Source: Physcia stellaris (Eukaryota; Ascomycota; Lecanoromycetes; Caliciales; Physciaceae). Taken from it: a stretch of DNA of 64,000 nt. Where the stretch lies: assembly GCA_018902385.1 (NCBI GenBank), contig JABSSW010000039.1:1-64000 (forward strand), given 5' to 3'. This document shows, one piece after another, positions 1 through 38,256 of the stretch. The notes beneath the pieces were generated by a model that saw only the letters and a list, made by a program, of their open reading frames with translations, was not told the DNA's origin and did no database searches. The translations under genes and the position numbers were made by a program. Numbering within the stretch: position 1 is the stretch's first letter; every line of letters starts with the position of its first letter.

Positions 1-1128
1 TGATTGAATTTTTTCGTTTTCGAAATCATAAACCGCGACAAAAATCGAAAATTTCGCAAAAATTGATACGACAAAAATTGATGTAAACGTCGATATTATC
101 GAAACGATTGCAAATGCAAAAATTATTTTGCGTAATTTTTCGACAAATCGTTTTTCAAATAATTCGTTTATCGTAATCATTGAACAAATTGATGATTCGT
201 TTTTGTTTTCATGTTCAAAACATTATTTTGTGATGTTTGATGACATAAAACGATCGAAAATTCGTATTTTTGTATTGAATCGTGATGTTTTTTTTTCGTC
301 ATAATTACAAACATATTTGATTTTTTTGTATTGACGAATTTATTTTTTTTTTTTTTTTAAACAATGATTTAATATCGACGAACGAATAACATTTGCATTT
401 TCAAACGCGGTATACTGATTTATCGACGATTACAATATTTGTTCAAATTTGATAAAATTTATTTGAATTGTCGTCGATTATTGATTTCGTGTTTATACAA
501 TTGCGAACGTATGCATTTGTTTTTTTTGTTTCAAATTAAAATTTTATGAAAAATTTTGCGTTTTGAATCATTGTTCGAATTTGATTTTCGAACGTTTTTA
601 TGACACGTTCTATTACGTCGTTTTGAATGAAATTGTACGAAACGATGTATTGTGAAACAATGTCGATAAATTCACATCAAAAATCGAATATAAATTTTAA
701 TTCTTTGACGTTGTCACAACGTACGATTTGTAATTTTCGTTGAATTTTTAATTTCATTTTCAATTTTCATTTGTTAAAAATTTTTGATGCATCAAATCGT
801 TTGCGAAAAAATAGAATTCATGTTCGTCGAAAATGATTATTCACGATTTTCAAAAAATATTCGTAATCGAGTTTTGAAACGAATAAAAATTCACAAATAT
901 CGATAAATATCAATTTTAATATGTGAATTTTGCGTTCGATTAAACGACGATTATGTGCATTAATCATTTTCGTAATCGCACATATTTTACATAAATCGTT
1001 ACGATTTTCGACGATGAGAATTGATTTGCGTAAAATTGTGATTTTGTGCAAATTTCGAAATTTTGCAAATTTTATATGATCAAAACGTCGATGTCATAAC
1101 TCGTATAAATCACGTTTTTTTTTATTAA

Positions 1129-1206
1129 CATTTGAATCAATATTTGAATCAACATTTGAATCAATATTTGAATCAACATTTGAATCAATATTTGAATCAA
1201 CATTCG
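1129..1206 (-). repeat. 12-bp minisatellite inside pol, left copy
   Basis: A run of 12-bp units (ATTTGAATCAAC alternating with ATTTGAATCAAT), about six and a half units long. On the coding (minus) strand it encodes alternating NVDS/NIDS tetrapeptides. It lies between the protease-like and GAG-pre-integrase regions, where Copia proteins are variable. Confidence 0.92.
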
Positions 1207-2727
1207 ATGATTGAAAATCGATTTCGATATCATTTCGAAAATCAATATTTGCATCGAACAAAATTTCGTTCGAATTCATTATTGTTGACGTTGCAAATGA
1301 AACAAACAAAATTTTAAAAATTCAATTCCAAACATCGTGTTGCTCGTTAACAATGCGTATTTTTTAAATTTTGATGTAATTTTGTCTATTATGTAAACGT
1401 TTTTTTGAACGAATATTCGAAATATTTCAACGTTTTGTTTATTGCGCATTTAACAAATTATCGTGACAAATTTTTTATCAATTTTTTTTTGATAAAATGT
1501 TTGTCGAATAAAAAATTGACGTCGAAATCAAATACATAAAACATTTTCGTCAACGTGTTTTTATCGTTTTTGACGCGTATTATCGTTGAATCACATTGAC
1601 AATACTTTTTTTTTCGATTTTAATCGTGCGTTTTTTAATCGATTTGAAAAATTCATTAAAAAATCGAAAATCGTCAATTATGAAACGAAACGTCAATGTT
1701 TGCAATTCAAACGAATTTGAAAAATTTATTGATCGATTTTTTGAATAAAACGACGATTTTTTCATGTGTTTTTCATTGTTTGAATCGATGTCGATGTCGA
1801 AATTTGAATTGTTGTTGAACGAAAAAAAATCGACGACGTTGTACGTTTTGTGTTTTTTATTTTTACGTAAAAATTTTTTGATTTTTTGTTTTTTCGTTCA
1901 TTTTTTTAATTTTTTCAAAAAATCACATTTTGCGATTCGATGTAAATCATCGCAAAAAAAACATTTCGTTTTTTTCGTTTTAATTTTGAAACGACGAAAA
2001 CTTTTGTCGAAATTGAAAAATCGTCGTTGAAATATGCGATAAAATTGACGACGATTATTTTTGATTATCAATGTCGATTCGACGATTTTGTTCGCAATTT
2101 AATTTGTGTTTTTTTTTTTGCAATTTTTGAATAAATTTATCGACATCGAAATTGTTTTTGCGTCGATGCATCACGAATGACATCGTATTCGACAAATAAA
2201 AATTGTAAAAATGTTTGAAAATGACGTTTTGATTTGAATAAATTCGTTATGTTTGATTGCATGTTTGCAATTTTGCGATTTTTTTTGATGATATCAATGT
2301 AAACGATTTCGATAATCATGTTTGAAAATTTTTTATAATTTATGAATTTTTGCAAATATTGTTTTTCAATTGTAACAAATTTTTGTTTGTATTTGTTGAT
2401 AAAAAATTTTCAAATTTTTTTGAAAATTTTCAATTTCGTCATCAATTTTTGATTATCGTCGTCGATATATTCGATGAATTGATATTGTGTTTTGACGTCG
2501 AATTTTTTTTCAATTTTTTTTTCATCAAAATTCAAATCGACATTTTATTTTGATTTTCGAAAATCATTCGACAACAATTTTGACACATAATTTGAATCGA
2601 CGATCATTCAAATTTTTTCGTTGATAAATCATTGTTTCATTAATTTGAATCATTTTTTGCAATTTTGACGAATAAAAATATCGCAAATTCGACGCGCATT
2701 AAATTTGTTAAATTCGAAATTGTTCAT

Positions 2728-3146
2728 GATGCGTGATATGATATGTAAATATGTATTCGAATGTAAATTTTTTTTATTGTCGTGTGTTTTTTCGTGAAAT
2801 TGTCGATCGAATCGTGTAAATTTTTTTTATTGTTTTAACGCGATCGAACGATGAATTTTTTTCACAATTGTTTGATTTTCGTGATTTCGTGATCGAACGA
2901 TTGACGTTGACAATTACAAAAAATTTATATTAATTCGAATTTCATAATTTATTGAACGAATGTGAATGATTGTCATTGCATTGCATGCAATATTATCGAA
3001 ATTTACGTACAAAAATAAATACAATTTGATTGCGCAAATGTTTTTAATAATAATCGATTTTGACACGTTTCGTTTAATCGATCAATCAAAAATTTTGATT
3101 TTATTCGTATTCATATTTCAATTTTTTGTCATCGTATTTTTCAACA
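2728..3146 (-). repeat. Probable shared LTR (3' of right copy, 5' of left copy) plus leader
   Basis: The right copy and the left copy are joined here. Similarity to the outer end of the array stops exactly after CAACA at 3142-3146, matching CAACA at 8604-8608. Read on the minus strand this is TGTTG, a proper LTR start. The gag start of the left copy is near 2727, so LTR plus leader is at most about 419 bp. Only one LTR lies between the copies, as expected after unequal recombination between LTRs. The inner LTR edge and primer-binding site are not resolvable after mutation. Confidence 0.6.
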
Positions 3147-3488
3147 TTTTCATTCGATAACAATTATGTTCATTGCATTCGTGAATGCGACTTTCATTGA
3201 ATTTCAATTTTTGCATTGATTGTAATTTTCATTGAATGTTAATTCGTGCAACGACGTAATTTTCATTGAATTTCAATTTTTACGTTCATTGATAAAAAAA
3301 ATATTGAATTTTTTCGATCAGAAAATCGAGTTCGAACGATTTCAAAAAAAATCATTTTGAATCATCATGCAATTCAAATTTGAACACGATCAACGAATTT
3401 TTGTTTTCGATCATGATTCGTCAAATGTGTACGATTGAATCATCAACATTTTAACATGAAAAAAGCAATTTTGATTATTGAGAAAAAT

Positions 3489-3815
3489 TTAATTGATTTT
3501 CGATTTTTTCAGTCTCAATTGTTTCACGAATTTTTTGAATTTATTTTTTGACAATGATTTAATCAAATCATCGATTATCATATTTGCATTTGAAACGTAA
3601 TTCAATTGAATCAAATTTTTCTGATGCAAATTTTTGATGTTATGATAAATTACATCAATGTGTTTTGATCGTTCGTAAATATGTGCGTTTTTGATTAACA
3701 AATTAACGATTTGATTATTTTTCAAAAATTGCATTGATGAACAAATTTTATGTTTATCGTTTTGAATGATTGTTATTTGATTCAATTCGATTTCGAAATA
3801 TTTGATGAAATTCAA
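3489..3815 (-). pseudogene. Copia RNase H C-terminal remnant
   Basis: This 108-codon frame matches the end of Copia polyproteins: a former DNQ-A-I segment reading NNQIVNLL, then SKHIDV-YH, then a former ADILTKPL-like motif reading IDDLIKSL. It is the 3' coding end of the right copy and is followed on its left by a non-coding stretch leading to the shared LTR. Confidence 0.82.
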
Positions 3816-4145
3816 ATTTCGAAAAAATTGTGTTATTTATAGTTTTTTTTTAACGCATGTCGATAAAATCATATATTCGATTTCAATAATTGAAATAACG
3901 ATCGATTTTTGTTTACGATTCATTCATGATATTGATTTTTCAACGAACATGTAAACGTATTCGAAAATCGATTTTTTGTTCAATTTATCGATTGCGTAAT
4001 CAAAATTCGAATAAATTTTGATTTTGAAATTTTCATTGTTGTTCAATTTCAAATCGTATACAAAATTTAAATCGATGATCGATCGAATGTAACGAAACAG
4101 AATTTTCATTATTTTGTCATGATATTTCGCAAAATCATTGAAATA

Positions 4146-4943
4146 TTAATTTAATCGTTTTAATGCGAAAACGATATTTGAACGAATGTGTATGACAACA
4201 TACATAAGTTTTTCGATTTTGTGTTGATAATTTTTTGAATCAATTCGTTCGTCGTTCGATTCAATTGATTTGAATGAATCGTAATCGTTCATGAATAATT
4301 TCGTACGTTCGTGTTTATCGATATTTATATGCAATTCATTCAATATTTCGCTCAAATAATAAATTTGATTCAATCGAATAATTCGTTTTTTACGATCGCG
4401 AATGATTTTAATGTCAAAAATTTTTTGCATTTTTCTCAAATTTTTGATTTTGAATATTTTTTTGAATTCATTTTTGAATCAATTGATTTGCTCGTTGAAT
4501 TTGACGACAACAAAAATGTCATTCACGTAAAAAAATAGTATGATTTTTCGTTTTTTATAACGAAACATACATGAATCAATCGAAATTTGTTCGAAATTCA
4601 ATTTGTGCAATTTTTTTACGCAACGTTCGTGTCAATTTTTAGTTGTTTGTTTCAATTCATAAAAATTTCAACGAATCAAAAATGTTTGTTCGAAAAATAA
4701 ATTTACGTCGAATGACGATTTCATGTAAATTATTTTTTTTAAAAATGATTTCGTGAAAACATTGTTGACGTTTATTTGATGACATTCGAGATTTTTCAAC
4801 GCAACGATGACGAAAAACAAACGAAAAATATCGAATTTGACAATTGAAACAAAAATATTTGTATAATTTATTTCATATATTTGCGAAAAATTTTTTGCAA
4901 CGAATTTGATTTTCAATTTGTTCAACGTATCATTCATATGCAT
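4146..4943 (-). pseudogene. Copia reverse transcriptase remnant
   Basis: The 4943-4668 frame matches the N-terminal part of RVT_2: AK-x-FSQ with Asn for the conserved Gly, then FRLFFVIVAL and a V-N-N-x-F region. The 4439-4146 frame matches the C-terminal part, including the segment after the YVDD region and the R-S-N-I-V-F-A motif that precedes RNase H. The middle is broken by stops and frameshifts. It is not functional. Confidence 0.8.
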
Positions 4944-5639
4944 TTTGATTTTGAATATTCATTTATTGATGACGATATTGACGTTTTTCGATGAAATGAC
5001 GACGTTTTAAATTTTATTAATTATTAACGTCGTCAATTCGATTTGAATAATTTCGAATCAAAATTTATTTCAAATGAAATGATTGACAATTTTTTGATAA
5101 TTTTCGAACACAAATATGATTAATTTTTCAACGAATTGTCGATTTGTGTTTTTTGTTGTTGCAAACAAAATTCATTCATCGTGTTCGCACATATCAAAAT
5201 TTTTAATCAAAAATGTCATCATGACGCGTACAATTTTGTTGCGATGTTCATTTCGTTTTTTTTCGTTCGTGATATTTCGTTTACGTTTAAAAATTATCAC
5301 GTGAAAAAATTGTTGCATCATGCGTGAAAATTTCGTGAAAAATGTTAATTTAACACGCGTTTGAATTGTTGATTTCGTCGTAAATTTGTTGATTTCATTT
5401 TTTTCATTTGATGTATCGATGAATTCATCGTTTTTTTTCATGTGCATTGATTGAATTTTTTTTTCGTTTTTCGAAATCATAAACGCAACAAAAATCGAAA
5501 ATTTCGCAAAAATTGATGCAACAAAAATTGATGTAAACGTCGATGTTATCGAAACGATTGCAAATGCAAAAATTATTTTGCGTAATTTTTCGACAAATCG
5601 TTTTTCAAATAATTCGTTCATCGTAATCGTGAACAAATT

Positions 5640-6500
5640 CAATGATTCGTTTTTTCATTTTTCATATTCAAAAAACATTATTTTGTGATGTTTGATGACA
5701 TCACGACGATCAAAAATTCATATTTTGTATTGAATCGTGATGTTTTCGTCATAATTTATAAACACATTTAATTTTTTTGTATTGACGAATTTGTTTTTTT
5801 TATTTTTTTCAAACAATGATTTAATATCGACGAGCGAATAACATTTGCATTTTCAAACGCGTATGTAATTTATCGACGATTTAATATTTGTTCAAATTTC
5901 AATAAAATTTGTTGAATTGTCGTCGATTATTGATTTCGTGTTTATACGATTGCGAACGTATGCATTTGTTTTTTTTGTTTCAAATTAAAATTTTATGAAA
6001 AATTTTGCGTTTTGAATCATTGTTCGAATTTGATTTTCGAACGTTTTTATGACACGTTCTATTACGTCGTTCTGAATGAAATTGTACGAAACGATGTATT
6101 GTAAAACAATGTCGATAAATTTACATCAAAAATCGAATATAAATTTTAATTTTTTGACGTTGTCACAACGTACGATTTGTAATTTTCGTTGAATTTTTAA
6201 TTTCATTTTCAATTTTCATTTGTTAAAAATTTTTGATGCATCAAATCGTTTGCGAAAAAATAAAATTCATGTTCGTCGAAAATGATTATTCACGATTTTC
6301 AAAAAATATTCGTAATCGAGTTTTGAAACGAATAAAAATTCACAAATATCGATAAATATCAATTTCAATATGTGAATTTTGCGTTCGATTAAACGACGAT
6401 TATGTGCATTAATCATTTTCGTAATCGCACATATTTTACATGAATCGTTGCGATTTTCGACGATGAGAATTGATTTGCGTAAAATTGTAATTTTGTGCAA
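5640..6500 (-). pseudogene. Copia GAG-pre-integrase and integrase remnant
   Basis: The 6500-6267 frame carries the pre-integrase CxxC and the start of the integrase core. The conserved D-[IV]-C-G-P motif reads DICEFLF, so Gly has become Glu and Pro has become a hydrophobic residue, as expected from G-to-A and C-to-T change. YEYFLKIV, with Asn in place of the usual Asp pair, follows. The rest of the core down to 5640 is broken by stops. The same frame is present in the left copy at 1051-818. Confidence 0.8.
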
Positions 6501-6542
6501 ATTTCGAAATTTTGCAAATTTTATATGATCAAAACGTCGATG

Positions 6543-7037
6543 TTATAATTCGTATAAATCACGTTTTTTTTGATTAACATTTGAATCAATATTTGAATCA
6601 ACATTTGAATCAATATTTGAATCAACATTTGAATCAATATTTGAATCAACATTCGATAATTGAAAATCGATTTCGATATTATTTCGAAAATCAATATTTG
6701 CATCGAGCAAAATTTCGTTCGAATTCATTATTGTTGACGTTGCAAATGAAACAAACAAAATTTTAAAAAATTCAATTGCAAACATCGTGTTGCTCGTTAA
6801 CAATGCGTATTTTTTAAATTTTGATGTAATTTTGTCTATTATGTAAACATTTTTTTGAACGAATGTTCGAAATATTTCAACGTTTTGTTTATTGCGCATG
6901 AACAAATTATCGTTATTGAAATTTTTTATCAATTTTTTTTTGATAAAATGTTTGTCGAATAAAAAATTGACGTCGAAATCAAATACATAAAACATTTTCG
7001 TCAATGTGTTTTCATCGTTTTTGACGCGTATCATCAT
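6543..7037 (-). pseudogene. Copia protease-like to pre-integrase remnant
   Basis: This 164-codon stretch matches the end of the Copia aspartic protease and its C-terminal region (valine/phenylalanine-rich, with an LFDKHF-like segment where families have LxSxxxL). It is followed by a spacer and then the 12-bp minisatellite coding alternating Asn-Val/Ile-Asp-Ser. The product is in frame but carries many radical substitutions. It continues into the GAG-pre-integrase domain at 6500. Confidence 0.7.
6578..6655 (-). repeat. 12-bp minisatellite inside pol, right copy
   Basis: This is the same alternating 12-bp array as at 1129-1206, with the same copy number and phase. It shows that the array was present before the two copies separated. 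It encodes NVDS/NIDS repeats on the minus strand. Confidence 0.92.
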
Positions 7038-7299
7038 TGAATCACATTAATTTGAATACAATTTTTTTTTTCGATTTTAATCGTGCGTTTTTTAATCGAT
7101 TTGAAAAATTCATTAAAAAATCGAAAATCGTCAATTATGTGAAACGAAACGTCAATGTTTGCAATTCAAACGAATTTGAAAAATTTATTGATCAATTTTT
7201 TGAATAAAATGACGATTTTTTTCATGTGTTTTTCATTGTTTGAATCGATGTCGATGTCGAAATTTGAATTGTTGTTGAACGAAAAAAAATCGACGACGT

Positions 7300-8189
7300 T
7301 GTACGTTTTGTGTTTTTTATTTTTACGTAAAAATTTTTTGATTTTTTGTTTTTTCGTTCATTTTTTTAATTTTTTCAAAAAATCACATTTTGCGATTCGA
7401 TGTAAATCATCGCAAAAAAAACATTTCGTTTTTTTCGTTTTAATTTTGAAACGACGAAAACTTTTGTCGAAATTGAAAAATCGTCGTTGAAATATGCGAT
7501 AAAATTGACGACGATTATTTTTGATTATCAATGTCGATTCGACGATTTTGTTCGCAATGAATTGTGTTTTTTTTTTTTTGCAATTTTTGAATAAATTTAT
7601 CGACATCGAAATTGTTTTGTGCGTCGATTGCATCACGAATGACATCGTATTCGACAAATAAAAATTGTAAAAATGTTTGAAAATGACGTTTTGATTTGAA
7701 TAAATTCGTTATGTTTGATTGCATGTTTGCAATTTTGCGATTTTTTTTGATAATATCAATGTAAACGATTTCGATAATCATGTTTGAAAATTTTTTATAA
7801 TTCATGAATTTTTGCAAATATTGTTTTTCAATTGTAACAAATTTTTGTTTGTATTTGTTGATAAAAATTTTTCAAATTTTTTTGAAAATTTTCAATTTCG
7901 TCATCAATTTTTGATTATCGTCGTCGATACATTCGATGAATTGATATTGTGTTTTGACGTCGAATTTTTTTTCAATTTTTTTTTCATCAAAATTCAAATC
8001 GACATTTTATTTTGATTTTCGAAAATCATTCGACAACAATTTTGACACATAATTTGAATCGACGATCATTCAAATTTTTTCGTCGATAAATCATTGTTTC
8101 ATTAATTTGAATCATTTTTCGCAATTTTGACGAATAAAAATATCGCAAATTCGACGCGCGTTAAATTTGTTGAATTCGAAATCGTTCAT
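7300..8189 (-). pseudogene. Copia gag remnant (UBN2-type with zinc knuckle)
   Basis: The start is set at the ATG near 8189. The first part carries three in-frame TGA codons at former Trp positions. The 7817-7515 segment matches the central Gag (UBN2/retrotran_gag) domain of Copia elements. After a frameshift near 7560-7580, in a long T/A run, the frame 7657-7358 carries a CCHC zinc knuckle (CFFC, then H and C). The left copy shows the same break points, except that its Gag segment is shorter. This is a dead nucleocapsid gene. Confidence 0.8.
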
Positions 8190-8608
8190 GATGCGTGATG
8201 TGATATATAAATATGTATTCGAATGTAAATTTTCTTTATTGTCGTGTGTTTTTTCGTGAAATTGTCGATCGAATCGTGTAAATTTTTTTTATTGTTTTAA
8301 CGCGATCGAACGATGAATTTTTCTCACAATTGTTTGATTTTCGTGATTTCGTGATCGAACGATTGACGTTGACAATCACAAAAAATTTATGCTAATTCGA
8401 ATTTCATAATTTATTGAACGAATGTGAATGATTGTCATTGTATTGCATGCAATATTATCGAAATTTACGTACAAAAATAAATACAATTTGATTGCGCAAA
8501 TGTTTTTAATAATAATCGATTTTGACACGTTTCGTTTAGTCGATCAATCAGAAGTTTTGATTCTATTCGTGCTCATATTTCAGTTTTTTGTCATCGTACT
8601 TTTCAACA
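8190..8608 (-). repeat. Probable 5' LTR plus leader of right Copia copy
   Basis: This segment lies upstream of the right-copy gag start (about 8189) and is collinear with 2728-3146. It ends at CAACA (8604-8608), where the sequence switches abruptly to an unrelated plus-strand Copia fragment. The LTR is somewhere inside this interval; its inner boundary is not visible. Confidence 0.58.
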
Positions 8609-10312
8609 GACAACATTGTTGATTTTCAATCAATTTCAATTGCAAACGTTGAATTTGATACAATCAATCTCGTTTCATTGTTGATCGATTACGTCGAAAA
8701 CATCGACGTTTTCTCGTTCGAAAAACTCATAACAATGTTGACGATCGACGAGAAAAAATCAAATAATTACAACGACGTCGCACGAAATTTTCACTTCTCA
8801 CAATAATTAGAAATAATAAGAAAAGAATTCGATTCTCTATCGAAAAATCACATTTGAAATTTAATAAATTTCACGTTCGATGAAAGAAAATCGTTGAACG
8901 ATAAATGAATTTACAAATTCAAACGCAATGTCGATGACGTTGTAATACGATACAAAGTTAAATGATGCGTTAAAGATTTTCTACAACAATACGACATTGA
9001 TTTTGATCAAATTTTTGTTTTCGTCGTCAAATCAATGATTTTTCGAATTCTATTCGTCGTTGTCGTCTTTTTGAATTTGAAAATTAAACAAATGAACGTG
9101 AAAATTGCGTTTTTATACAAATTCATTGATTCAAATATTTACGTTAAATATTCGATTGAATGTAACAATGACAAAACTATTTGCAAATTGAACAAAGCAT
9201 TGTATGATTTGAAATAATCATTCAAATTTTGATATAAACGTTTGTTCGAATTTTTTTTACAAAAATTAATTTTCAATTTTTTCGACGCGAATCAAAACAT
9301 ATTCGTCACGAATGTTGATTTCAAAAATTTTATCATTATTACATGAATCGATGATATCAAAATCATTGTTTTCAATAAAATCATGATTAACAAAGCAAAA
9401 ACAAAATTCAATAACGTTTTCGACATGATTGATTTTGAATCAATAAATTTCTATTTTGATATGATCATTTTCAAAAATCGCGAAATGCACATAATTCGTT
9501 TTAATCAAAAAACATATATTCAACGCGTCGTTAAAAAATTCGATTTACAAAATGCGAAATCAATTCGAACATTCATGAAAAAATTATTTGATTCAATTTT
9601 CAACGTTAATCAAATCATCGATCAAAATATCAAACAATATCAAACAATGATGAATTCAATCATGTTTGCAATGATAAAAATTAAATCAAATATAACAAAT
9701 GCGATTTTCATAATCAATCGATTTGTTCAAAATTTCAATTCTAATTATATCAAAACAATCAAACGTGTTATAATTTATTTCAATTTCACGATCGATTTTT
9801 GCATAGTTTACGACGATAATTTCAACAAAAAATTAAACATCGAAACATATTGCGATGCAAATTGAGTTCGTGACAAAATTTTCAAAAAATTCATCGAAAC
9901 ATATCTGTTTTTATTAAACGACGATTCGATAAATTGAATGTCAAAATTTCAATTTATCGTGATCACGTTTATTTGCGTCGTCGAATATATGATCATATCA
10001 TTCGTCGTCAAAAAAATTATTTGATTCAAACAATTACTCGTTGATTTACAAATTCAAAATCAATCGAACAATTACGTCAAAATATTAATAAATATTGACA
10101 ATCAAAACGTCAAAGCATTCAATGAAAATTCAATACATCATAATCGTATCAAACACGTCGACATCGTATATCATTATATAAAAAACGAAATTAAAAAAAA
10201 TCGCATTGAATTCAAATACATAACGATCGACATCATGTCAATCGACGATTTCATCAAATTTCTATTTTCGTTCAAATATCAACGATTTATCGACATGTTC
10301 GAAATGAATTAA
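8609..10312 (+). mobile_element. 5'-truncated Copia fragment (RT and RNase H), opposite strand
   Basis: The plus-strand frame starts in the integrase-RT linker and continues through RT: K-x-F-L-Q-x-Y-D-I-D near 8965-9010, FRILF near 9038-9052, LNKALYDLK near 9190-9217 with Asp for the usual Gly. It then covers the C-terminal RT (9383-9865), a former D-A-D-W-x-G-D, and RNase H up to a stop at 10310-10312. Trp codons have become TGA at 8906, 8963, 9230, 9344, 9863, 9935 and 10022; one former Gln is TAA near 9215. Residual AG, CT and CC dinucleotides are more common than to the left, so it is mutated less completely. By inference, the minus-strand array inserted into this element. Confidence 0.85.
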
Positions 10313-10732
10313 ACATCATGATTTTATATTTTTGCAAATTCGAAAAAAAATGTTGAAATAAACTCATCATCAAAAACAATGTCAAAACGTTATTCTATTA
10401 TAGATTAGCGTGCAAACTCTGTACAATAATTCACATTCATCACATGTACGATAGATAGTATTATCATGAATATAAGCACGTTGCACTCTACATATCTGTA
10501 ACAGATACCATGTGCACATCTCCGCCTCATTTACATCATTTGGTGTATCAATGATCAACCCATCTGGTGTGTGAAGATTTACTAAACCGTATCCTGATTT
10601 TGTTGATCAATTTATTACCAATCAACTTGCTCCGAGTCGCGCGCAAGAAGCATCGCTTACCTGCCTTCCACCAGCGCAAGCGATTACCGACAAGCGATTA
10701 TAGCTACAGGATCATGCTATTTGTAATGGAGG

Positions 10733-10740
10733 ACATATAA
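10733..10740 (+). promoter_or_regulatory. TATA-like element upstream of secreted hydrolase
   Basis: CATATAAG lies about 70 bp upstream of the ATG at 10806, the distance expected of a fungal TATA box with a short 5' leader. It is the first promoter-like element after the AT-rich block. Confidence 0.4.
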
Positions 10741-10805
10741 GAATACTGTGAGGCTTGGGTGTTCAGTAACCAGTTTCAACTGCTAGCTTTTGACTTGAAG
10801 TCACA

Positions 10806-11981
10806 ATGCTTCTCAGAAACTCCCTACTTTCCGGACTGTTGAGTTCGTCCTGCTGTGGTGCTGTCATAACTAAAGGAGAACCTCATTGTCAGCAACTAAA
10901 CTTTACCTACTCTGTGAGCGCAACTGTGAGAGATCTACCACCTGCACCCGACCTTTCTGCGCCCAATGCTGTGGTGGCCTATCTGCCGGTGCTCCAAAAA
11001 AACTACAATTCAACTCCTAACAAGACTCGTGAAGGCACATATACGTTTGCAGGCCAGTATTGCAAAGCATTTGGAAGAGGCAATTCTGCACTTCAAGTCC
11101 TGGCCCACGGATCCACGTACACAAAAGAGTACTGGGACCGAGGGGCATGGGGGAATCTATCGCTTCAAAACTCCTGGCAACGCTTTGCCGCCGAACAAGG
11201 CTACTCGACCCTTGCCATAGACCGGATCTGCAACGGCGACTCCTCCCGCCCCGACCCTCAACTAGACTGCCAACTCAGCACCAGCATCGAAGCGTTCCAC
11301 GCATTGTTCTCCGCCCTACGAAACGGAACCGCCTCAGCCAAAATCCCGATACCCAAGCGCTTGGTGTTCGTAGGGCACTCGGCTGGGTCCATCACCGTCA
11401 GCAACCACGTGCAGAAGTATCCCCAGGACGTCGACACCGCGATCCTCACCGGCTGGCCTTCGGGTCCCATAGCAAGCGCTTTTGCCGCGGCCTACCAGGC
11501 GCGACATAACATCACCCCGCCTGCACCGCCTGCGCTATCCCCCGGTTATTTCCCCGCCAAGATCGGTGATTCGGCGCGATTCGCGGATCTCGATCAGGGA
11601 TACATCGTCAGCACGAATGCGACTTTCCGCTCGATTGGGTACGGCGGCAGCTACGATCCCTCCTATCCAGTTTTCGATAATCTCAGCAGAGGCACGTTTC
11701 CGCTGGGCGAGATATCCTACACCGGCGTTTCCGCGTTTCCCGCCTTTAAGGGGAGGGTCATTGTCGCGACCGGCGATCTCGATGGGTTTGCATGGGCGGA
11801 CGGCGACGTGGTTGAGGATGCTAGAGCGGCGTTTCCGTCCGCGCGCAGCTTTAGTTGGATTCATGCCCGCGACTCGGGGCATCTTGTCAATTATCACCGC
11901 TCGGCTCCCGAGACTTATTGGAAGATCTATCAGGCGCTGCGGGCACGGAGACTTGTCCAGAATTCTGAGCTGAGGAACTGA
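10806..11981 (+). CDS. Secreted alpha/beta-hydrolase
   Basis: This single-exon gene encodes 391 aa. An N-terminal hydrophobic stretch (about residues 1-19) followed by Cys-rich sequence looks like a signal peptide, so export is likely. The nucleophile elbow G-H-S-A-G is at residues 190-194, with Ser192 as the predicted nucleophile. A G-D-L-D-G segment near residue 325 and the S-G-H-L motif near residue 360 supply candidate acid and His residues. Several N-x-S/T sites fit a secreted glycoprotein. Related fungal proteins are annotated as alpha/beta-hydrolase or lipase-like; the substrate cannot be read from the sequence. GC content is normal, although the gene begins only about 400 bp from the mutated block. 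No intron is needed. Confidence 0.87.
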   Translation: MLLRNSLLSGLLSSSCCGAVITKGEPHCQQLNFTYSVSATVRDLPPAPDLSAPNAVVAYLPVLQKNYNSTPNKTREGTYTFAGQYCKAFGRGNSALQVLAHGSTYTKEYWDRGAWGNLSLQNSWQRFAAEQGYSTLAIDRICNGDSSRPDPQLDCQLSTSIEAFHALFSALRNGTASAKIPIPKRLVFVGHSAGSITVSNHVQKYPQDVDTAILTGWPSGPIASAFAAAYQARHNITPPAPPALSPGYFPAKIGDSARFADLDQGYIVSTNATFRSIGYGGSYDPSYPVFDNLSRGTFPLGEISYTGVSAFPAFKGRVIVATGDLDGFAWADGDVVEDARAAFPSARSFSWIHARDSGHLVNYHRSAPETYWKIYQALRARRLVQNSELRN

Positions 11982-13300
11982 ATGGGATGGCCCGTTGTCT
12001 CATGGCGAGTTCATCCGTAAAGGTAGCCCATGGGCTGGCAGAAACTGGCCCGCTTCTACTTGGCACCTCCTGAAGAGTGAGCGATGCCAGGCCATGGGAT
12101 AACGCTCTCATTCCGAGGCGGTAGCGTCAACGTCCCTCGCGACCATATTTCCTTCTTCCGAGCTATCATCTCAGTAGCGTGAAGCACATTCCCAACAGAA
12201 CCCCTTGTCACAAGCTCGTCAGTGTATATAGAGCGCCGAGTCAACCCCACTCACCGCTCACAGTGACGGACCAAATTACGCACTGTCCATGACTCTCCTC
12301 ATGTATCTAACCCAAGTATCCATCTAAAAAACCATTTCCCCCCAATACTGCTCCCTATATCTCTAGCTCTCACCAACTTGCACTCCTTCTCTTCACATGA
12401 GACCCAATTCCGTGTTCATATCATGCTTCGTGTGGAGATTGTAATCAAATAAAGCAAACCACGTCTACTCATATAATCAAGGGCCAGCAAACTCAAACAC
12501 CATTAAAAATGCTCGGAAAGAACTCCGAGGTGAAGCACGAGAAGAGTCCACTGAAGGAACTAGGAGATTTACTTGGTGGGCGTTGCGGTGCTTGATGCAA
12601 CTCCTACCCAGTATTACCCTGATCGGATTGGATAGATAAATGGAAGGATATCAGGGGGGTTTACTATTCATTCAACTTGGGCTCTAGAAGTGTGTCAGCC
12701 GACCACGAGGGCTATTTGAGGGGGTACATACTGTACTGTCTGGCGGCGCTTGAGATGGACCTCTACTTGTACTGAGTCCGTAAAAATATTTGTAGACATG
12801 GAAGTCGCAAAAAGAGATGATAGCTTGATTTTAGAAGTAGGGGGTAGGATATGGATGGGTTTGGATGGGAGTTTGCGCTAGGAGAGGGTTGAGAACTAAA
12901 GAGATTGAGTAGCTGAGTGAGGAGATGAGCAGATGGTGGATGACTACTTGCTGTTGTCAAAGGAGAAATCTTCGGCTGCACTGGTGAAGAATGGCACTTC
13001 AAATTTTCGCGCCTAAAGATTCCCGGCAGGCGGGTGCTCTAGAGGGGGCTGCTCCCGGGCTAGGTTCTTAGCTCTAGGACCTCCTACATTACCTAAGTGC
13101 GGCCTGCAATCGAACTGACACACCATTGCATCAGTGGACTATAGACAATATGGAGTAGGGAGGTGGATCTAGGTTTAGGTAGGTAGAGCACGCGGATACA
13201 TCCGAAGGGCCATGACGAAGTGAATTTGACCGAAGAGAGAACAGAAAATTTGAACATTCTCGGTATCTGTCTACTTTTCGACTCGCCATCCACGCATCCC
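11982..13300. other. Intergenic, no gene recognised
   Basis: This is the spacer between the convergent hydrolase and B3/B4-domain genes. Short open frames are present, such as one of 28 codons from 12508, but none has family-like features. Composition is normal, and the Copia mutation pattern does not extend here. Confidence 0.6.
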
Positions 13301-14132
13301 TCACTTCCCAACCTCAAAATCCCACACCCCAACCCCCTCCCCCAGCACCGTCGCCCTCGCCTCAACCCCAAAAAACCTCCTCAACCCCCCAACCAAATCC
13401 TCCCCAACTTCCCTCGCCAACACACTCACCTCCCTCTCCACCCCCTCGTTAAAAACCTCACTCATAAAAATCACATCCCTCGTCCCCCCGTAACCAGCCC
13501 CTCCTTCGCCTGCCTCCACGCCAACTGCCTCGTCAGCACCGTGGTGCCCTGGACATACACCAGCTCGCCCTCCGGCACCTTGACCCCCTCCGCGCCCTCA
13601 TCCGCATCCAGCGCCCTAAACACATCCCCCTGTCTGGAAAAGCGCAGCTCGAGTGGGGCGGCAGCGGAGAGCTGGGCGAGATCGAAGGCGCCGGCGGTGA
13701 CGGCGTGCTTGATGGAGACGGCGTTGTAGAAATCCACGACGGGGTTGATGGGGCGCAGCGCGGTGCGGTCTTTGAGCAGACGCTTGTAGAGCGATTCGTT
13801 GGATTGCGGATATTTTTTCGTCGAGACGCCGCAGCTGGCTTTGAGGGTGTCGCGGTAGAGGGCGATGCGCGGGTGGCTTTGGGCGTTGGGGTAGGTGGTT
13901 AGGGTGGTCAGGGCGGTCGTTGCTGCGGTCTGTGGGTTGGACGGGGATGGTGAGAATGGGGATTTGGGGTAGGTGCTTGGGGGAGGGTTTTGGGGGGTTG
14001 GGGGCGTACCTGGGCGAAGTCGGTCACTGCGGGGTTTTCGGCTTCGTTGTTGAGGTTGTGGGCTACGACGATGACGACTTGCATCTTGGGTAGTCGTTTG
14101 GTGACATCTTGAGCGATGCTGAAGCGATTCAT
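13301..14132 (-). pseudogene. B3/B4 tRNA-synthetase-like domain protein, one-base frameshift
   Basis: Exon 1 is 14132-14010 and exon 2 begins at 13929 (phase 0; donor GTACGC, acceptor CACAG). The product of about 250 aa matches stand-alone B3/B4 proteins, a fold shared with the editing module of phenylalanyl-tRNA synthetase beta. Readable motifs are FYNAVSIKH, an LELRFS-x-x-G-D-V-F segment, and QG-T-x-V-L-T-RQ-x-x-WRQ. Free-standing members are thought to act on mischarged tRNA or related substrates, but their role is not settled. In the C run at 13484-13489 the frame shifts. One extra base would join the upstream frame, ending LVTGG, to the downstream frame, TRDVIFMSEVFNEG, without gap. This may be an assembly error rather than a real break. 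It lies 240 bp downstream of the SulP gene, on the same strand. Confidence 0.72.
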
Positions 14133-14372
14133 GATGGTGACTGGGAGAGCTGGGTGGGTAGAAGGATCAGTGAAGGTGGGAGAAATGGCAAGTGGGTGAA
14201 TTGATGAATTGATGGCGTTCACCGCTTCAATCCTTGTGTAACATGCAGGGTGGGGAAAGGCCCTGCAGGATTTAGGATTCCCGTGAGCCAAACCCCCACC
14301 ATTGAATTCCACCAGTCGTGAGAAATTGCAAGGAATAATCAATGTACTTTTGATATGAATCACGCAATCGAT

Positions 14373-17300
14373 CTAGCATGAAAACACCGCCGACGGTCGC
14401 CACTGCCCAATGGATGCATCCCAGCTGGAATATCCACCTCCATCATGAAGCTCTACCGTCCAGCAATCCCGATCGGAAGTAACGTCAAATAGAGACACGT
14501 GAGCGGAAGAGCTGGGGTCAGCAATCGTGTCAGCATCCGGTCGCACAACACCAATGCTCTCCCCGGAACCGAACGACTGCTTCGTCAGGACCTTCCCATC
14601 TTTTTTAACCTTAATTACACCTATCCGTTTGATCAACCCGTAGTAGCAGTTGTGAAGGAGTCTTTTCACGAGAGCTTGCAGCGATGGTCTCAAGTCGCTC
14701 GCAGGCGGTTCTCTAGGAACTTGGACCGAGATCTGCCCTTGGAGGACGAAAATCAGACAGGGATCTGGTCGGATTGTTAGTGCCCTGTTGTCTGCGGATC
14801 GGAGACGAGCTGGTACATACTTTGGATTATCACCGACTGGCCCGGCTGATAGTGACCAACCCGAACGCTTGTACTCCTCGAAGGTGAGAACTGGTGCTGG
14901 TGTCCCTTGGAGCTGGGTGTGTAGTCTCTATCAGTGCTGGGAGGGAAGAATTCCTGGAACATGTCTGGACTCGGACAGATTCGACCGAAGGCCTCAATGG
15001 CCTCTTCCTCCGACACAAAAGAAGTGGCTTGGTGATAGACTTAGCTTTGGAGAAGATTAAATTCACAAATGGGGTTCCAGCACTTACTTTCATCATGACT
15101 TCCAACGCTGACAGTTAGAGATCTCGAATCGGAGACCTGATCTTGATGAACGTTGCTCCACTCGACTGCCTCGTCCAGTGTCTCAAATCCCATTGGATCG
15201 ACCTGTTCCAGGGTACTTGAAGGCCTGTGAGGCGACCGAGTCTCAAAATTGAGTACCAAGCCGCCACGCTGAAGGTCGGCATATACGGTAGAATCATCCG
15301 ATAAACCAGCCAGTATCACCGTGGTGGACTCGGCAACCTCGCGAATCTTACGCTCGAGGAATTCTACTACCGATGTCTCTATTCGACAGACGTTCGTGAG
15401 ATCGAGTACGAGGTATTGATATTGGTTGGTTGCTTTTTGCGCCATGTCGATGGCCGACTCAAGCGAAGGGATTGATGCGAAAACTATCAGTAGAAGTAAG
15501 TATCTCAAGCCAGAAATAAACTGCTTCTGGCAGATACTTACAAATGTAGCCGCGAAGCTTGATCACACCTAGTCTAGCTTCTTCCGAAGCAAGAATCCCC
15601 CGGAATGAGTCTCGATTATCCGGTACAGCAAGACTAGACCATCGGTGAAGCTCGATGTCGTTGCCCGGTCTCGAAGCGGTGACGGAAATACGCTTGATGT
15701 CAGCCGGAGACAAGATCTCTGATACTTCCACAACGGTTTCAGGCGCTTTAGACAAGTCATTGTATCGTATCGTTCCAGATTCTTCGTGCAGGTCTGTCAT
15801 GCGCACTCTCTGAGTAATCTTCGTTAGCTATGTGTGTAGTATGCCATGTAAAATTAGTCTTACCGTATCCATGATCCCCCAGAAGAGGTACACTACAGCG
15901 GCAGCTGCAACACCAATGCCAAAGCCAGGTGCATATCCCATGAAGGTGCATGCAATTAATGTGGTCATCACCACCAACCATTCAGCAAGGACTAGGGTTT
16001 TTGCCGACTCCCACACGGCCTCCAACGTCAATTCGATTCCGAGGAAGAGAACTAGCGTCGATGCTAGCACTGTGGGCACGTAGGGAAGGACAAGATAGGA
16101 GATGAAGAAGAATCCTAATGTCAAGGCAGTGACGACACCTGCCTCGATACGGCCTCCTCCGGCGCGAGTGAAAAATATCGAGTACGACAGTTGCTAGAAG
16201 GCGAATAGACGATCAGCAATCATACTTTATGGGTAAGGTCTACACTTACAAGGATATTGGGTACTGTGCCAGCACAACCAGCAAGAAGGTTAGCAACTCC
16301 TTGGCCAATGAACTCGTGGTTCATGCTGACAGGTACACGAAGAGAGTAACCTAGAGCGGGTACATATATCGGCAGGTTGAGTACACCGATGACGACGACA
16401 AGCACGATATTCGTAATGGCACTCTTTAGGGCCGAGAAAGCTACGTTGTGGAAGTCGAACAGAGCCCAATAATTCCAAGCAGGTCCCGGATATTGTTCGT
16501 GGAGTCCGTCATCCTCAATCTTGAATAACCACCCATTATCGACAAGGATGGCCATACCTCCTGTGTTAGTTTTGCGCATGATCGCAATTACGATCCAGAA
16601 GATGATCGGTATCGCCACAAAGTACAGAGGAACGTAGTAAGCGTGTCGAGTAGCTCCTGCGGTTCGTCTTCGGAGGAACTCGGAACGAATGGAGTACGAA
16701 AGAAAAAAGGCAGGGACGCAGGAAGCAGCGAGTAAGCCAAGATGCTCGACCCCAAACAGGACCGTGCTGACCGAGGATAGTTTCAAGGCTGGCGATGACG
16801 CTGGAAGCGGTAATTCCAGTCCCAGGATGAACAATGAGACCCCGATACCACCAATGATACCGGTAAGTACAGTCTTCGGAAAGTATGCGACCTATCCATC
16901 CGAGTTACTGTTAGCGTGGTCTAGCGAAATAAACGGGACACCTACGACTTGAAGGGTCTACGTACCACTTTTCCAGCCTTGAAAACCCCGAGTGCAATGA
17001 ATGAAGCCCCTATCAAGAAGCTGGTGAGGGTATATGCCACCATTACGGTCGGTATCAGTTTCGGATTATCATCACCAAGAGCACGTTGTAAGTCGGAGCC
17101 AATGCCTCGGAGAAAAGGCAATATCTCGATAAGCATGGCTCCCAAAGCTCCAGGGAAGAGCGAACCGCGGAGCGTCATGACTAATTGTGAGAATACCGTA
17201 CTAGGACCACATCAGTGGAACAACCCAACTCAAATTACTGGAAGACAAACCTGAGTATGTACATGGACATGCCTTGTACTTGGACAGATTTGAAGGCGGT

Positions 17301-17500
17301 ACCTTCGGACGGAAAGATAAGCAGGCCCGTAGAGACTGGGTAATTTGTAAGCCAGTGACCAGAGTATGTAATCCAACGACTGACATACCAGCATCCAGGA
17401 CATTGAAAAGAGTACCGAGCAATATTGAAGGCAGTGCATGATTGAGCCGTGCAATTGGGTTCGAGGTGCCCAGTGGGGAAGACTTCTCAAAAATCGCCAT
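14373..17500 (-). CDS. SulP/SLC26-family transporter with STAS and cNMP-binding-like C-terminus
   Basis: Nine exons join to 897 aa: 17500-17389, 17335-17251, 17200-16966, 16891-16250, 16193-15864, 15809-15542, 15483-15088, 15027-14821 and 14791-14373. All junctions are GT-AG and in phase; the exon 8 acceptor is the least certain. Residues from about 25 to 465 form the multi-span anion-transporter core, with N-terminal LPSILLGTLFNVLDA and a G-G-I-G-V-S-L-F span. Residues about 545-640 form a STAS domain (LVLDLTNVCRIETSVVEFL). Residues about 700-897 resemble a cyclic-nucleotide-binding fold (F-V-L-Q-G-Q-I-S-V, then F-G-S-G-E-S-I-G). This layout resembles the fungal YGR125W/Vsb1 group, linked in yeast to vacuolar storage of basic amino acids, rather than plasma-membrane sulfate permeases. 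That assignment is inference. Confidence 0.85.
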
Positions 17501-18802
17501 GGCAAAATTCTTTGACCTGAGCTGGGGAAGTGAAGTGATCTAAATCCTGTCGGCCGGTGGCTTTGAGACTCCAGAAAGACTATTCTGAACACCGGAAAGC
17601 TCTGGGGATATAGGAAATGGTGACGGAGCAAACAACGGTACGTGCGAAACCCAAGACAGGGAATGCTAGACGAGAGCTAGATGAAAGCCACGTGGTGTGT
17701 CAAAGCTCGCTATACTTTAACTCTATATTCGTCTTTGTCCGACGGTAATCAATTCTGGTTCCCACCAGATGTTGTGGCATTCGGTGGCTCACGTTTTTGA
17801 TTGGTACCTCGGTGGCCCCCGATTACTGTATGGCAGGCTGGGCCATGGGATCCACATACTTTATCGTGCTGCGGAGCATGTTTCAATCCATATGGATTTT
17901 GGACATTGGCAATACTCCACTCCGGCTGGGCCGCCCCCACCAAGCTTTACTCCTGTGTCATCTACCCTACTTCCTACCTCCGATATGCGCCAGGCAGCCA
18001 ACACTCAAAGACGAGGAATCACTCGATGATGATGTAACATCCGGTTCAGCTGCTCCATGGCCCATTCCTCTGAAACGCCGGCCCTACCCTCTACTCGTCG
18101 ATTTTTGCGTCATCATCTCGGGCATTGCAAGACTACTTTACAGCAGTATGTTTAGATGTCCGTTGTATCAGGAACAAGAGGCCTGCTCGAAAATAATGCC
18201 TGTTGAGCTTTGCAGCGAATGATATGACGTGATATCGACATGCGTTCAAGCTGATACGATTATTCCCATAGAAGTTGATACCATGCTTGCTCTCTCATCC
18301 TACGATGAAAAATTTTCGTTAATTAAGGTTACGAAGGAGCCGGAAATGCTATATAAAGGATCGTGCATATTCAACCTTGCAGATTCTGCCGCGCACTAAA
18401 TTGCCCAGCCATCCAGCCTTAAAGTTCTATTGCTGACCATTATGCAGGTACACCCGAATGGAGAAGAAATTCTGACTCATGCATTGTCAGGACATTTAAC
18501 CCAAATTGGCAAGGGAGTCTGGACAGACGTGAGGACTTGAAGGATGGGCGGTCTCGAGCATAGTAAGATCCGTAATGGTAGTACAAAGGTAAGCACGGAA
18601 CGAAAACGCGATGCATGTGGCCAGGAATGCATTGGGACACAGTCCGGACCACGTAATACGGCCGTTTCCGAGGCCTTGTCGATCCTACGGTGACTGCTTC
18701 TCATCACTATAAAGCTGAGGTTACCCTGCGTCCGATGTTCAAATCCCTTTATCATCAATCTTACAAGCTGACGCACAGAGCTTAGCATCTTCTAAATCAA
18801 GA
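17501..18802. other. Divergent intergenic region (SulP / desaturase)
   Basis: This region separates two divergently transcribed genes and must hold both promoters. A TATATAAAG-like element sits at about 18350-18358, some 450 bp before the desaturase ATG, so it may serve a long 5' leader or be incidental. No coding sequence was recognised. Confidence 0.5.
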
Positions 18803-19831
18803 ATGTCAGCCACCATGTCTTCAGTCCAGACGGAAACCGTTACCACTGAGACTCATCAGATCCGTCCACAGGACAAACCTCTTCAGCATGCTTTGGGGGT
18901 TGCGAGACTTTACCGCGCGAGGAGCACACTCCAGACCACGTTGGGGATAATCAGCAACTACATCGTCTTCATGACTTGCATAGCAGTATCTCAGAGCCCA
19001 GCTGTATCATCTTACCTATCACCTTTGGCTGCCAGGATGCTCTATGTGCTTTCGGCGCTACTTATCGCGTCCCGTATGAGAGCCTTGGAGAACTTGATCC
19101 ACGAAGCATCACACAACAATCTCTTTCCAGTGGCGAAGCTGCATCAGAGTCTGCAATTCTTGTATGCTTTCCCGGTCTTCCGTGTCGTTGACGATTACCG
19201 ACGATCGCACTCGCTCCATCACAAACATCTTGGCGACCGACAGCGAGACCCCGATATCGTACGCCTCTATGACCTAGGTCTGGATAAACTTCCCGAACAG
19301 CCTGTGTGGTATCTCATCGGATTGCCAATGACCGGGTTCCTTACCTACGAGTATCTGACCACAACTTTCTGGGACTTCTGGGAGAGCTCGTCATCTCGCT
19401 TGTCTAAGACGCTGTACTGGATGACTGTGGCGCTGGGTGTGGCATACACAAAGTCCTACCAAGGATTCGTGTACTACTACCTTATTCCCTTCTTGGTCAT
19501 TCTCCCGGTGACACGGTACTGGGCCGAAATCTCGGAACACCTTGGTTTAGATCTTCGAGCAGATCTAGGCAGCTCCAGAACGAACATCGGATTCATTCAC
19601 CGATGGTACATGAACCCTCACAACGACGGATACCATGCGGTGCACCATCTGTGCAGCCAAGTCCCGTTCTACCTCCTACCAGAGGCACACAGAATTCTGA
19701 TGAAGGATAGCGAGGCATATGCAAAAGCCACTGTGATTTCTTACGGCTTCTTTGAGACATTCAAGCAGATGGTGACGGGTAAGACGATTGTGAAGGATGG
19801 CAGAAGCGTCGAGCTCAGTGCTGCACGTTGA
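18803..19831 (+). CDS. Membrane fatty-acid-desaturase-like protein
   Basis: This single-exon gene encodes 342 aa. Three histidine boxes of the membrane di-iron desaturase/hydroxylase family are intact: H-E-A-S-H at 100-104, H-S-L-H-H at 136-140, with a further His at 142, and H-A-V-H-H at 278-282. Hydrophobic pairs around residues 45-95 and 165-240 give the usual four membrane spans with the His boxes on the cytosolic side. There is no cytochrome b5 domain, and the protein is shorter than the Ole1-type delta-9 enzymes. It may instead act on sphingolipids, carotenoids or another lipid. A second in-frame ATG four codons later is an alternative start. Its 3' end faces the 3' end of the SAT4-domain gene. 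Confidence 0.85.
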   Translation: MSATMSSVQTETVTTETHQIRPQDKPLQHALGVARLYRARSTLQTTLGIISNYIVFMTCIAVSQSPAVSSYLSPLAARMLYVLSALLIASRMRALENLIHEASHNNLFPVAKLHQSLQFLYAFPVFRVVDDYRRSHSLHHKHLGDRQRDPDIVRLYDLGLDKLPEQPVWYLIGLPMTGFLTYEYLTTTFWDFWESSSSRLSKTLYWMTVALGVAYTKSYQGFVYYYLIPFLVILPVTRYWAEISEHLGLDLRADLGSSRTNIGFIHRWYMNPHNDGYHAVHHLCSQVPFYLLPEAHRILMKDSEAYAKATVISYGFFETFKQMVTGKTIVKDGRSVELSAAR

Positions 19832-21480
19832 AATTTGGCATCTATCTGATACGGTGCCAGTCTCACGGCGACAGTCGGAGATGGGGGCTGAGAAGTGTGC
19901 CTTGGCAGCGAAAGAGCACAAGATCTGGGGGTCAGATGGCGTGAGTTTTGGCGGAATCAGATTGATCGCACTAGTCGGGAAGCAGATGGTACCGGGTAAA
20001 ATGGGTATAGGGTTCACTCGTTATGATTTAGGCCTAGACGACGTCATGAAGTTCAAAATCTTCAATCTCTGTTAACTTGCTTTGCAAAACCAACAATCCA
20101 TGAAACAGTTCCCTATGCTGGTAATCAAGTGATTGCAGGCTTTCCCACACCTCAAAGTTTCAAGTGCGACATGCCCACCAACTCAGAGCGAATTCGATGA
20201 CCAGATAATGCACTAGGATTTCGTCCGAGAGTGATTCATCGGGTCTCTTTTGCCGACTCGTCTGTAATCTGGAACTGGAGGGAAATTAGGATCTTCAGCC
20301 AGATGCAATCCTGTTCGAACTGGCCCCATCAGCCTTGTTGATGATGCCGGAAGTGTCGCAGCTGCCAGTGCCAGGTAAGAAGAAAAAAGGAAAAAGGTTG
20401 GTCCAGATGGCCTCCGAAGAATGGAATGATGTGACGATCAGCTATTTCCGGTCCAACGAGCGGGGAGCAATAATTACCGCGCGTGTGTAACGTTACATCC
20501 GGAGGCTCCCGCCACCCGCCCTGGAGATCGAGACAGTCAGCTTTCAGATTTTTTTATGCAGCCACAGTCTCGGCTGACGGAGATACAGTCTCAGCTTACG
20601 CATACAGAGCACGTGCCAAGGCACTGCCAAGGCAGTGTAACGTAGAGGATCCAGCCGGGATGGAAAGGATGCGTCAGCTTTCAGATCACATTGCGACATG
20701 TAGGATTTTTTGACGTAAGAACAATTGGCACTGTACATCCCTCTGGATGAGTGTGAAGACTCCTCATTCGGCAAGATACATCAGACACGTGTTTGGTCTT
20801 CACCGCCTCGCCTGGCCCGAATCAATGTCCATTGCATGGCACGTGGGAATGGTTCCATCCACACCACTGTCCGTCTCCACCAATTTACCAGCACGCAATA
20901 TCTCCTCGCAACAATTACTAGGCCCGGCGAATTGTATCGGATGAACTTCCCTGCAATATCCTGTTCAAGCTATGCCTGCTTCACGTCGCTGCTTATGGAG
21001 CCACTCTATGGATTCAATCACGTGCTACCTAACGCTTCGAGTGAAGCATAGGAACAACTAAGCCGACTAGCCGGACGGCTCTTCGAAGTCGGACACAAAC
21101 GATTACAGGATTCGTGCTACTGCCCAGTCAAGATCTTGATTGGGCGCAACTTAATTCCGTTCATTTACGCTGAAAGGTCAGTGATGATCTCAAGGCTATC
21201 CTTTCAACCCCAGTGGATGCCGAAACATCTTTCGTTGAAAGGATTCATACAGCATAAGGCGTGGTGTATGCAAATATGACATGTTGATCTTGTGGTGTAC
21301 TTTTGAAGGCAGATCCGGGGATCACTGTTGGTTTGCCTGGCTGGGTGTTCAGCAGGAATATCCACAGTTTCAGACGCATCTCATGATGTACCATATACAA
21401 ACTCCACGGAATCTCCCTAAATTTCCACAGTTTTGAGGGCTTCATCGAAAAATACAATTTAGATCCCAACTGGAACCCTT
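19832..21480. other. Convergent intergenic region with clustered CACGTG sites
   Basis: This lies between the 3' ends of two convergent genes, so no promoter is expected. It nevertheless holds four CACGTG palindromes at 20610-20615, 20786-20791, 20840-20845 and 21019-21024, and a repeated 14-mer GTCAGCTTTCAGAT at 20536 and 20673. No convincing ORF was found. It could hide a non-coding transcript, a decayed gene or a short multi-exon gene. Confidence 0.5.
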
Positions 21481-37800: not shown

Positions 37801-38256
37801 ACAGATTAGGCCATCGTTGTTGATGATTAAGGTAATATACTCTAAATTCGACACTACTTGCTTAGCAGTAAGTGAGGGCGTGTGTTTGATCAGGAGATAG
37901 TCCTCATATTCAAGAACATGTATTGATTTTCGAAAACCGGTGATGGAATATTGATGAATGTTGGTCTGTTTATCAAGGTATCTTTGATCTCGACCCGGGT
38001 TATGGAGGAGTCACAGGGGTGATATTTGTAGTGGAAACCCAAAACACACCCGATATTGAACTAGTAGTGTAGGTGTTACATACTCATCGAGAAAGACTCT
38101 GGCCATCTTCTGTGATATCTACTATCGGCGGATTACATCCTTGAAAGGTGGGACATGTTACTGTTGTGACGGGCAAGTGGATTTTCGGCTTACATTCCTG
38201 ACGCCGCTACTTAAAACCTCATTGAACAGGAAGCCGTACCAAGAATCCTTTGCATC
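34893..38256. other. Long gene-poor spacer
   Basis: This 3.4-kb spacer is the largest outside the AT-rich block. Open frames up to 150 codons exist (36326-36778) but lack coding signatures and family motifs. One CACGTG lies at about 37503. Composition is moderately AT-rich but without the CpC/CpT depletion of the left block. It may hold a decayed gene or a non-coding RNA; nothing specific is supported. Confidence 0.45.

Follow-up and report, generated by a model that had tools for sequence, protein, structure and literature searches.

Results and Discussion

Cytosines before pyrimidines are missing from a Copia block of Physcia stellaris

We analyzed the first 64,000 nucleotides (the window) of contig JABSSW010000039.1 (C39) from the Physcia stellaris assembly GCA_018902385.1, which comprises 43.97 Mb in 147 contigs and whose gene content, introns and methyltransferases point to a filamentous ascomycete. 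The window opens with a block of Copia retroelements in which cytosines followed by a pyrimidine (CpY) have been replaced by thymines, CpC ahead of CpT, with CpA and CpG left in place. We consider it probable that this reflects a repeat-directed process of the repeat-induced point mutation (RIP) type, acting on C before a pyrimidine and presumably carried out by an enzyme of the RID type. In positions 1-10390 only 2 CC, 1 GG, 42 CT and 35 AG were counted, next to 620 CA, 720 TG and 619 CG. The first kilobase contained CC and GG once each, CT 3 times and AG twice. Using 200 mononucleotide shuffles of the same letters as a control, the observed sum of 80 for CC, GG, CT and AG was found far below the shuffle mean of 1,327.6 and the shuffle minimum of 1,220. 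These counts confirmed an earlier note on this DNA, which had described the scarcity of the four dinucleotides and the abundance of CA, TG and CG from the letters alone. The GC content of the block was 0.26 and TA was depleted (observed/expected 0.41). In positions 10391-64000, the GC content was 0.50 and CC, GG, CT and AG occurred at 0.97-1.05 of expectation. As the densities of CA plus TG (129 per kb in the block, 138 in the flank) and of CG (60 and 54 per kb) were close to the flank values, these dinucleotides were spared, not created.

The end of the feature had first been placed at 10390. We moved it to approximately 10503, because CC and GG were absent up to there and reappeared directly beyond: counted in 50-bp bins, their sum stayed at 0 through the ten bins that precede 10501 and was 4, 5, 2 and 5 in the following four. 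Ten members of the second Copia family of the window stop at the identical base and continue into unrelated sequence. Over the terminal repeat, which falls in the final bin, 8 copies showed a CpY change of 0.55 compared to 0.75-0.96 elsewhere. An escape of the terminal repeat from mutation was considered and rejected, since CpC is erased from the window copy there and CpT alone is partly kept.

Direction of change and the 3' neighbor rule

The changes were polarized with three unmutated or lightly mutated Copia loci as references (L025, L026, L028), giving 15 comparisons that were scored per strand. C-to-T transitions were observed on both strands throughout, with shares of 0.89-1.00 at CpC, 0.59-0.95 at CpT, 0.01-0.18 at CpA and 0.00-0.11 at CpG. 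Alignment to less mutated family members, named in the earlier note as a possible refutation, placed the changes at CpC and CpT and hardly at CpA. For the window itself (8609-10503 versus L026), 158 of 161 CpC, 171 of 206 CpT, 19 of 259 CpA and 8 of 216 CpG were changed. A split by wider context, made for four comparisons, revealed little effect of the 5' neighbor; GCT was somewhat below other CpT sites in the two of these four that involved L026 (0.51 and 0.60 versus 0.58-0.74).

CpC changes before CpT. We inspected 207 AT-rich 1-kb windows, which came from loci chosen for their transposable elements, the 64-kb window and eight further samples, with some overlap. In 199 of these CC/GG was more depleted than CT/AG, with medians of 0.00 and 0.18 of expectation. 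The other 8 included one telomere-like contig start and four with nearly equal low values. Two low-GC windows (L009 from 4001, L012 from 1) with CC/GG above 0.6 of expectation may contain unique flank. The proposal that CpY targeting had run close to completion was upheld as far as the target, C before a pyrimidine, is concerned, and had to be amended in that CpC and CpT are unequal, CpC being erased first.

Mutated and unmutated copies of the Copia families

For the first Copia family, 40 of 116 candidates were scored, yielding 46 match rows, 26 of them near full length, two of which lie in the window. All 20 retrieved copies (approximately 3.15 kb each, the two from the window included) contained 0-7 CC, 0-9 GG, 4-115 CT and 3-88 AG, together with 159-197 CA, 217-248 TG and 185-205 CG. 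A search for the Copia reverse transcriptase domain RVT_2, in which 150 of 165 candidates were scored, gave 137 rows, 4 stop-free and 133 with at least one stop, and 30 loci were retrieved, 4 uninterrupted and 26 interrupted. Among the interrupted loci, 25 of 26 had no more than 9 CC and 7 GG in the 1.4-kb core and 16 had none at all; the exception is the lightly mutated L026 on contig C20. The four loci without a stop in the domain (L025, L028, L029, L040) were of normal composition. As these unmutated relatives contain ordinary amounts of CC, CT, AG and GG, the ancestor had them too, which disposes of the possibility, raised beforehand, that an active ancestor already lacked them. Three of the four (L028 on C8, L029 on C42, L040 on C7) are 95-97% alike, retain long open frames and stand unmutated beside heavily mutated relatives.

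The consequences for coding frames were coherent. The 4 uninterrupted RVT_2 frames contained 17 TGG, 15 CAG, 24 CAA, 10 CGA and zero stops, the 26 interrupted frames 108 TGA, 2 TGG, 13 TAA, 2 TAG, 217 CAA, 16 CAG and 93 CGA. Tryptophan codons are converted to TGA and CAG to CAA; CAA and CGA survive, though an attack on CpA or CpG would break them. Both RVT_2 domains recognized in the window, at 4326-5018 in a minus-strand unit and at 8879-9577 in the second-family element, are each broken by 4 TGA and 1 TAA.

Breadth across the genome and standard RIP indices

The same rule is present in Copia, DNA-transposon and ribosomal DNA (rDNA) copies, and the signature was seen in most interrupted repeats retrieved. 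For DDE_1 DNA transposons 1 of 10 rows was stop-free, and two interrupted fragments (L064, L065; approximately 0.53 kb each) contained zero CC and zero GG. For RVT_1, 10 of 150 scored rows (527 candidates) were stop-free. The single 5.8S match (L069, C41:45500-46400), found with 39 of 2,644 candidates scored, is an rDNA copy with the CpY signature; no unmutated 5.8S was found among these 39. The spacer of this rDNA is mutated as well. At Rfam-conserved positions (5.8S and the first 91 of the large subunit), 8 of 9 CpC, 8 of 15 CpU, 0 of 19 CpA and 1 of 20 CpG were changed; for all consensus positions the values were 21 of 25, 14 of 24, 1 of 28 and 5 of 34. The distinct CpY specificity suggested for the Copia block is supported, with CpC first, and holds beyond Copia in the rDNA copy and the two fragments of DNA transposons.

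Among eight samples of 5 kb, those from the starts of C4, C22 and C36 were affected, as was part of the first kilobase of C1, and the four internal stretches were normal. The C1 start (L055, C1:1-5000) was rejected as a high-CC exception: the contig opens with roughly 95 bp of telomere-like CCCTAA array that keep their CC, and bases 251-1000, further in, are CpY-depleted. In the sampled loci the mutation was confined to repeats, with the boundary at 10503, mutated transposable elements and rDNA copy, and normal unique flank. Using a TpA/ApT of at least 0.89 and a substrate index of at most 1.03 as the standard RIP cutoff, none of the 207 AT-rich and none of the 8 intermediate 1-kb windows passed, and a single one of the 110 with normal GC did. 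Standard indices would, as anticipated, miss the signature.

Candidate methyltransferases

A search of the genome for the C5 methyltransferase domain PF00145 gave four rows, which we read as three genes; the homologues of RID and DIM-2 that were to be looked for were found, two of the genes being RID-like and the third DIM-2-like. L001 (C6:791557-792528) encodes 512 amino acids after two introns were removed by hand and carries the motifs PCQ and EET. L003 together with L004 (C5:498855-499792) has 798 amino acids of frame with PCQ and EQT. The domain was matched with E-values of 1.3e-48 (L001) and 2.3e-41 (L003). L002, with 1,009 amino acids of a 1,118-amino-acid frame, shows the ENV triad and is DIM-2-like. 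In RID/Masc1 enzymes EQT or EET replaces ENV (PMC6709928; this and all further papers are cited from excerpts), and L001 and L003 are RID/Masc1-like by their PCQ motif and EET/EQT triads, as judged from the predicted proteins. As in the RID/Masc1 enzymes described there, little sequence separates the QxRxR motif from the last motifs in both proteins. Here, two diverged paralogues stand in one genome; they are identical at 39% of 307 aligned positions in the catalytic part and at 34% of 149 in the N-terminal part. One or two RID copies are reported for species with CpA-type RIP (PMC4352252). Among solved structures, DNMT1 enzymes come closest to the L001 domain, and no relative of this EET protein was found among the viral contigs searched.

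A link between one of these enzymes and the CpY pattern is plausible and unproven. We propose that a RID/Masc1-type cytosine methyltransferase, the EQT or the EET paralogue, would act on paired repeats, probably during the sexual cycle, and that its target site would take a 3' pyrimidine in place of the 3' adenine. C-to-T change would then be directed at both DNA strands of a repeat and halt at its end, hitting CpC first and CpT second and leaving CpA and CpG. A MAT alpha-box frame is present and stop-free. Toward the more specific version, in which one diverged RID paralogue reads the 3' pyrimidine and converts CpC and then CpT strand by strand along the elements, with L026 caught in mid-pass, we lean neither for nor against.

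Several observations weigh against a RIP-type process with CpY specificity. Two interrupted RVT_1 fragments were only weakly affected (L067: CC 3, GG 2, CT 22, AG 23; L068: CC 7, GG 13, CT 20, AG 25). The C/T-type differences among the unmutated L028, L029 and L040 fall at CpY in 38 of 67, 37 of 71 and 46 of 79 cases, a weak excess at most; since such similar copies differ without a strong CpY bias, the process does not hit every repeat now. It may be over by now, may depend on a sexual cycle that is rare, or may have yet to meet these three copies. Where L028 was compared with L017 and L019, the oldest case, as many as 18% of CpA had changed, and L026, the reference for 10 comparisons, is itself partly mutated. 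Finally, CpT-rich RIP is known alongside CpA, which leaves the lead of CpC and the intact CpA as the sole unusual traits.

Alternative explanations

The same pattern might be produced by the DIM-2-like enzyme, or by slow loss of methylated cytosines in repeats through deamination. A gene for such an enzyme is present (L002), and DIM-2 action is described to continue in the mitotic cycles of Dothideomycetes (PMC7882544). That CpC is nearly all gone while other substitutions are few suggests bursts and speaks against slow decay, by way of argument and not of test; we regard this alternative as rather unlikely.

APOBEC-like deamination of retroelement complementary DNA (cDNA) would change one strand, as seems to have happened in L026, where GG is lost and CC retained on the coding strand (57 versus 191), with AG (176) and CT (185) near equal. 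In our reading, one strand of L026 was passed over once with CpC as the only target, a single case from a family with no known unmutated member. The flank of L026 has a 200-bp stretch with a similar skew (CC 14, GG 1), and as there is this flank skew, a single case and no unmutated relative, chance or codon bias may contribute. Other copies were changed on both strands, the 5' neighbor had little effect, and the DNA-transposon fragments and the rDNA copy obey the same rule. With neither a 5' neighbor rule nor a limitation to retroelements, cDNA editing was rejected as the general pattern and appears very unlikely. A search for PF08210 gave no match and its control was silent as well, so that it shows nothing about APOBEC-like enzymes.

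Canonical CpA-directed RIP on an unusual starting composition would agree with RID-like genes and AT-rich transposon blocks. The polarized comparisons (CpA changed in 1-18%, CpC in 89-100%), the depleted TA, the failure of all 207 AT-rich windows at the index, the survival of CAA with rare TAA and the normal composition of unmutated relatives led us to reject it, and we give it next to no credence. Ultraviolet damage leaves C-to-T at dipyrimidines, and the changes do fall at CC and CT, yet TpC without a 3' pyrimidine was spared (L026 versus L032: 2 of 183 TCA and 0 of 124 TCG changed) and the flank is normal, making this origin extremely improbable. An assembly or sequencing artefact, conceivable for a window that starts at a contig end inside a repeat, is practically dismissed by independent copies on many contigs, each with its own flanks, that follow a common rule with a coherent codon outcome.

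Comparison with known RIP-like systems

The RIP-type process proposed here shares with Neurospora-type RIP the C-to-T change on both strands, the confinement to repeats with sharp ends, the mutation of transposable elements and an rDNA copy, and a RID-like gene. It differs in that CpA is spared, CpC erased, CpT next in line and TpA depleted, and in that tryptophan codons become TGA, compared to glutamine codons becoming TAA or TAG. It is RIP-like in its working, yet judged by CpA it falls outside canonical RIP: neither the CpA preference nor the standard index values were found. A CpT component of RIP is described for Botrytis, Sclerotinia and Magnaporthe (PMC4352252), and prominent CpT to TpT change, dominant in some families, is a likeness to the present case. 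In N. crassa Tad1 CpT overshadows CpA, which is dominant in S. nodorum (RIPCAL, PMC2621366), CpT to TpT is dominant in LARD sets of RIP-capable fungi (van Wyk 2021, PMC7882544), Anisogramma shows CpA and CpT (PMC10998396), and Colletotrichum truncatum has CpT-led Copia families with a TpA/ApT of about 1.6 (PMC6180176). In contrast to our data, CpA is also attacked there in the same species or families (PMC4352252, PMC10998396, PMC6180176, PMC2621366), and CpC is not given as the leading target in the excerpts of these reports. The CpG-type mutation of basidiomycetes and Tuber (PMC4352252) is likewise TE-directed (transposable element-directed) C-to-T; it targets CpG, which is among the best preserved dinucleotides here. 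Further reports concern Monilinia (CpA, plus CpC-to-TpT double changes, PMC8959702), rRNA pseudogenes (CpA-led, PMC5555474) and Endocarpon, to which standard indices were applied (PMC3897900). Amselem 2015 (PMC4352252) distinguishes CpA, CpT and CpG signatures, and its main text, as excerpted, does not use the term CpC. CpC-led, CpA-sparing mutation was not found in the literature searched; the Clutterbuck 2011 survey lay outside this coverage and may hold a similar case. What is unusual is the lead of CpC with the sparing of CpA, CpT-rich RIP being already known.

According to a survey of 1,239 fungi, RIP-like defenses share a CpA preference (Badet and Croll 2025, PMC12543289, as excerpted), to which erased CpC with spared CpA is a counter-example. 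The outcome at gene level differs as well, through the TGA codons. Screens based on indices can return a negative for heavily mutated repeats. If the version with one diverged RID paralogue is true, lineages that carry blocks of this kind may have been called RIP-negative, and the choice of the RIP target would be a trait of the enzyme that can be switched. Two RID paralogues, and mutated next to unmutated copies, offer natural material for asking what sets the target.

Anatomy of the window

The features of the window are collected in Table 1. The minus-strand Copia units follow each other head to tail at intervals of approximately 5.45 kb, bases 9-3146 matching 5459-8608 at 96% identity. Ten short open pieces from the window were compared with Pfam; three gave a match, all with RVT_2 (one piece at 4668-4955). 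The LTR-like (long terminal repeat-like) stretch would represent the terminus of the second-family element, and no 5' partner was seen within the window; a purine-rich tract precedes its counterpart in L026.

Table 1. Features of the 64,000-nucleotide window at the start of contig C39.
Feature	Positions	Strand	Evidence
Copia unit, first part (5' half), truncated by the contig start, CpY-erased	1..3146	-	96% match to 5459-8608; dinucleotide counts
Second half of the next Copia unit, CpY-erased	3147..5446	-	RVT_2 domain; counts
First half of the second minus-strand Copia unit	5447..8608	-	Repeat match with 9-3146
Copia of the second family, 3' part	8609..10503	+	RVT_2 match; CpC fully erased, CpT largely
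Terminal LTR-like stretch (TG...CA)	10351..10503	+	Shared by 10 family members, all ending at one base
Flank of normal composition with ordinary genes	10504..64000	.	Counts, 50-bp bins

Within each minus-strand Copia unit a 12/24-bp tandem repeat was observed, at 1127-1204 and 6569-6653 of the window.

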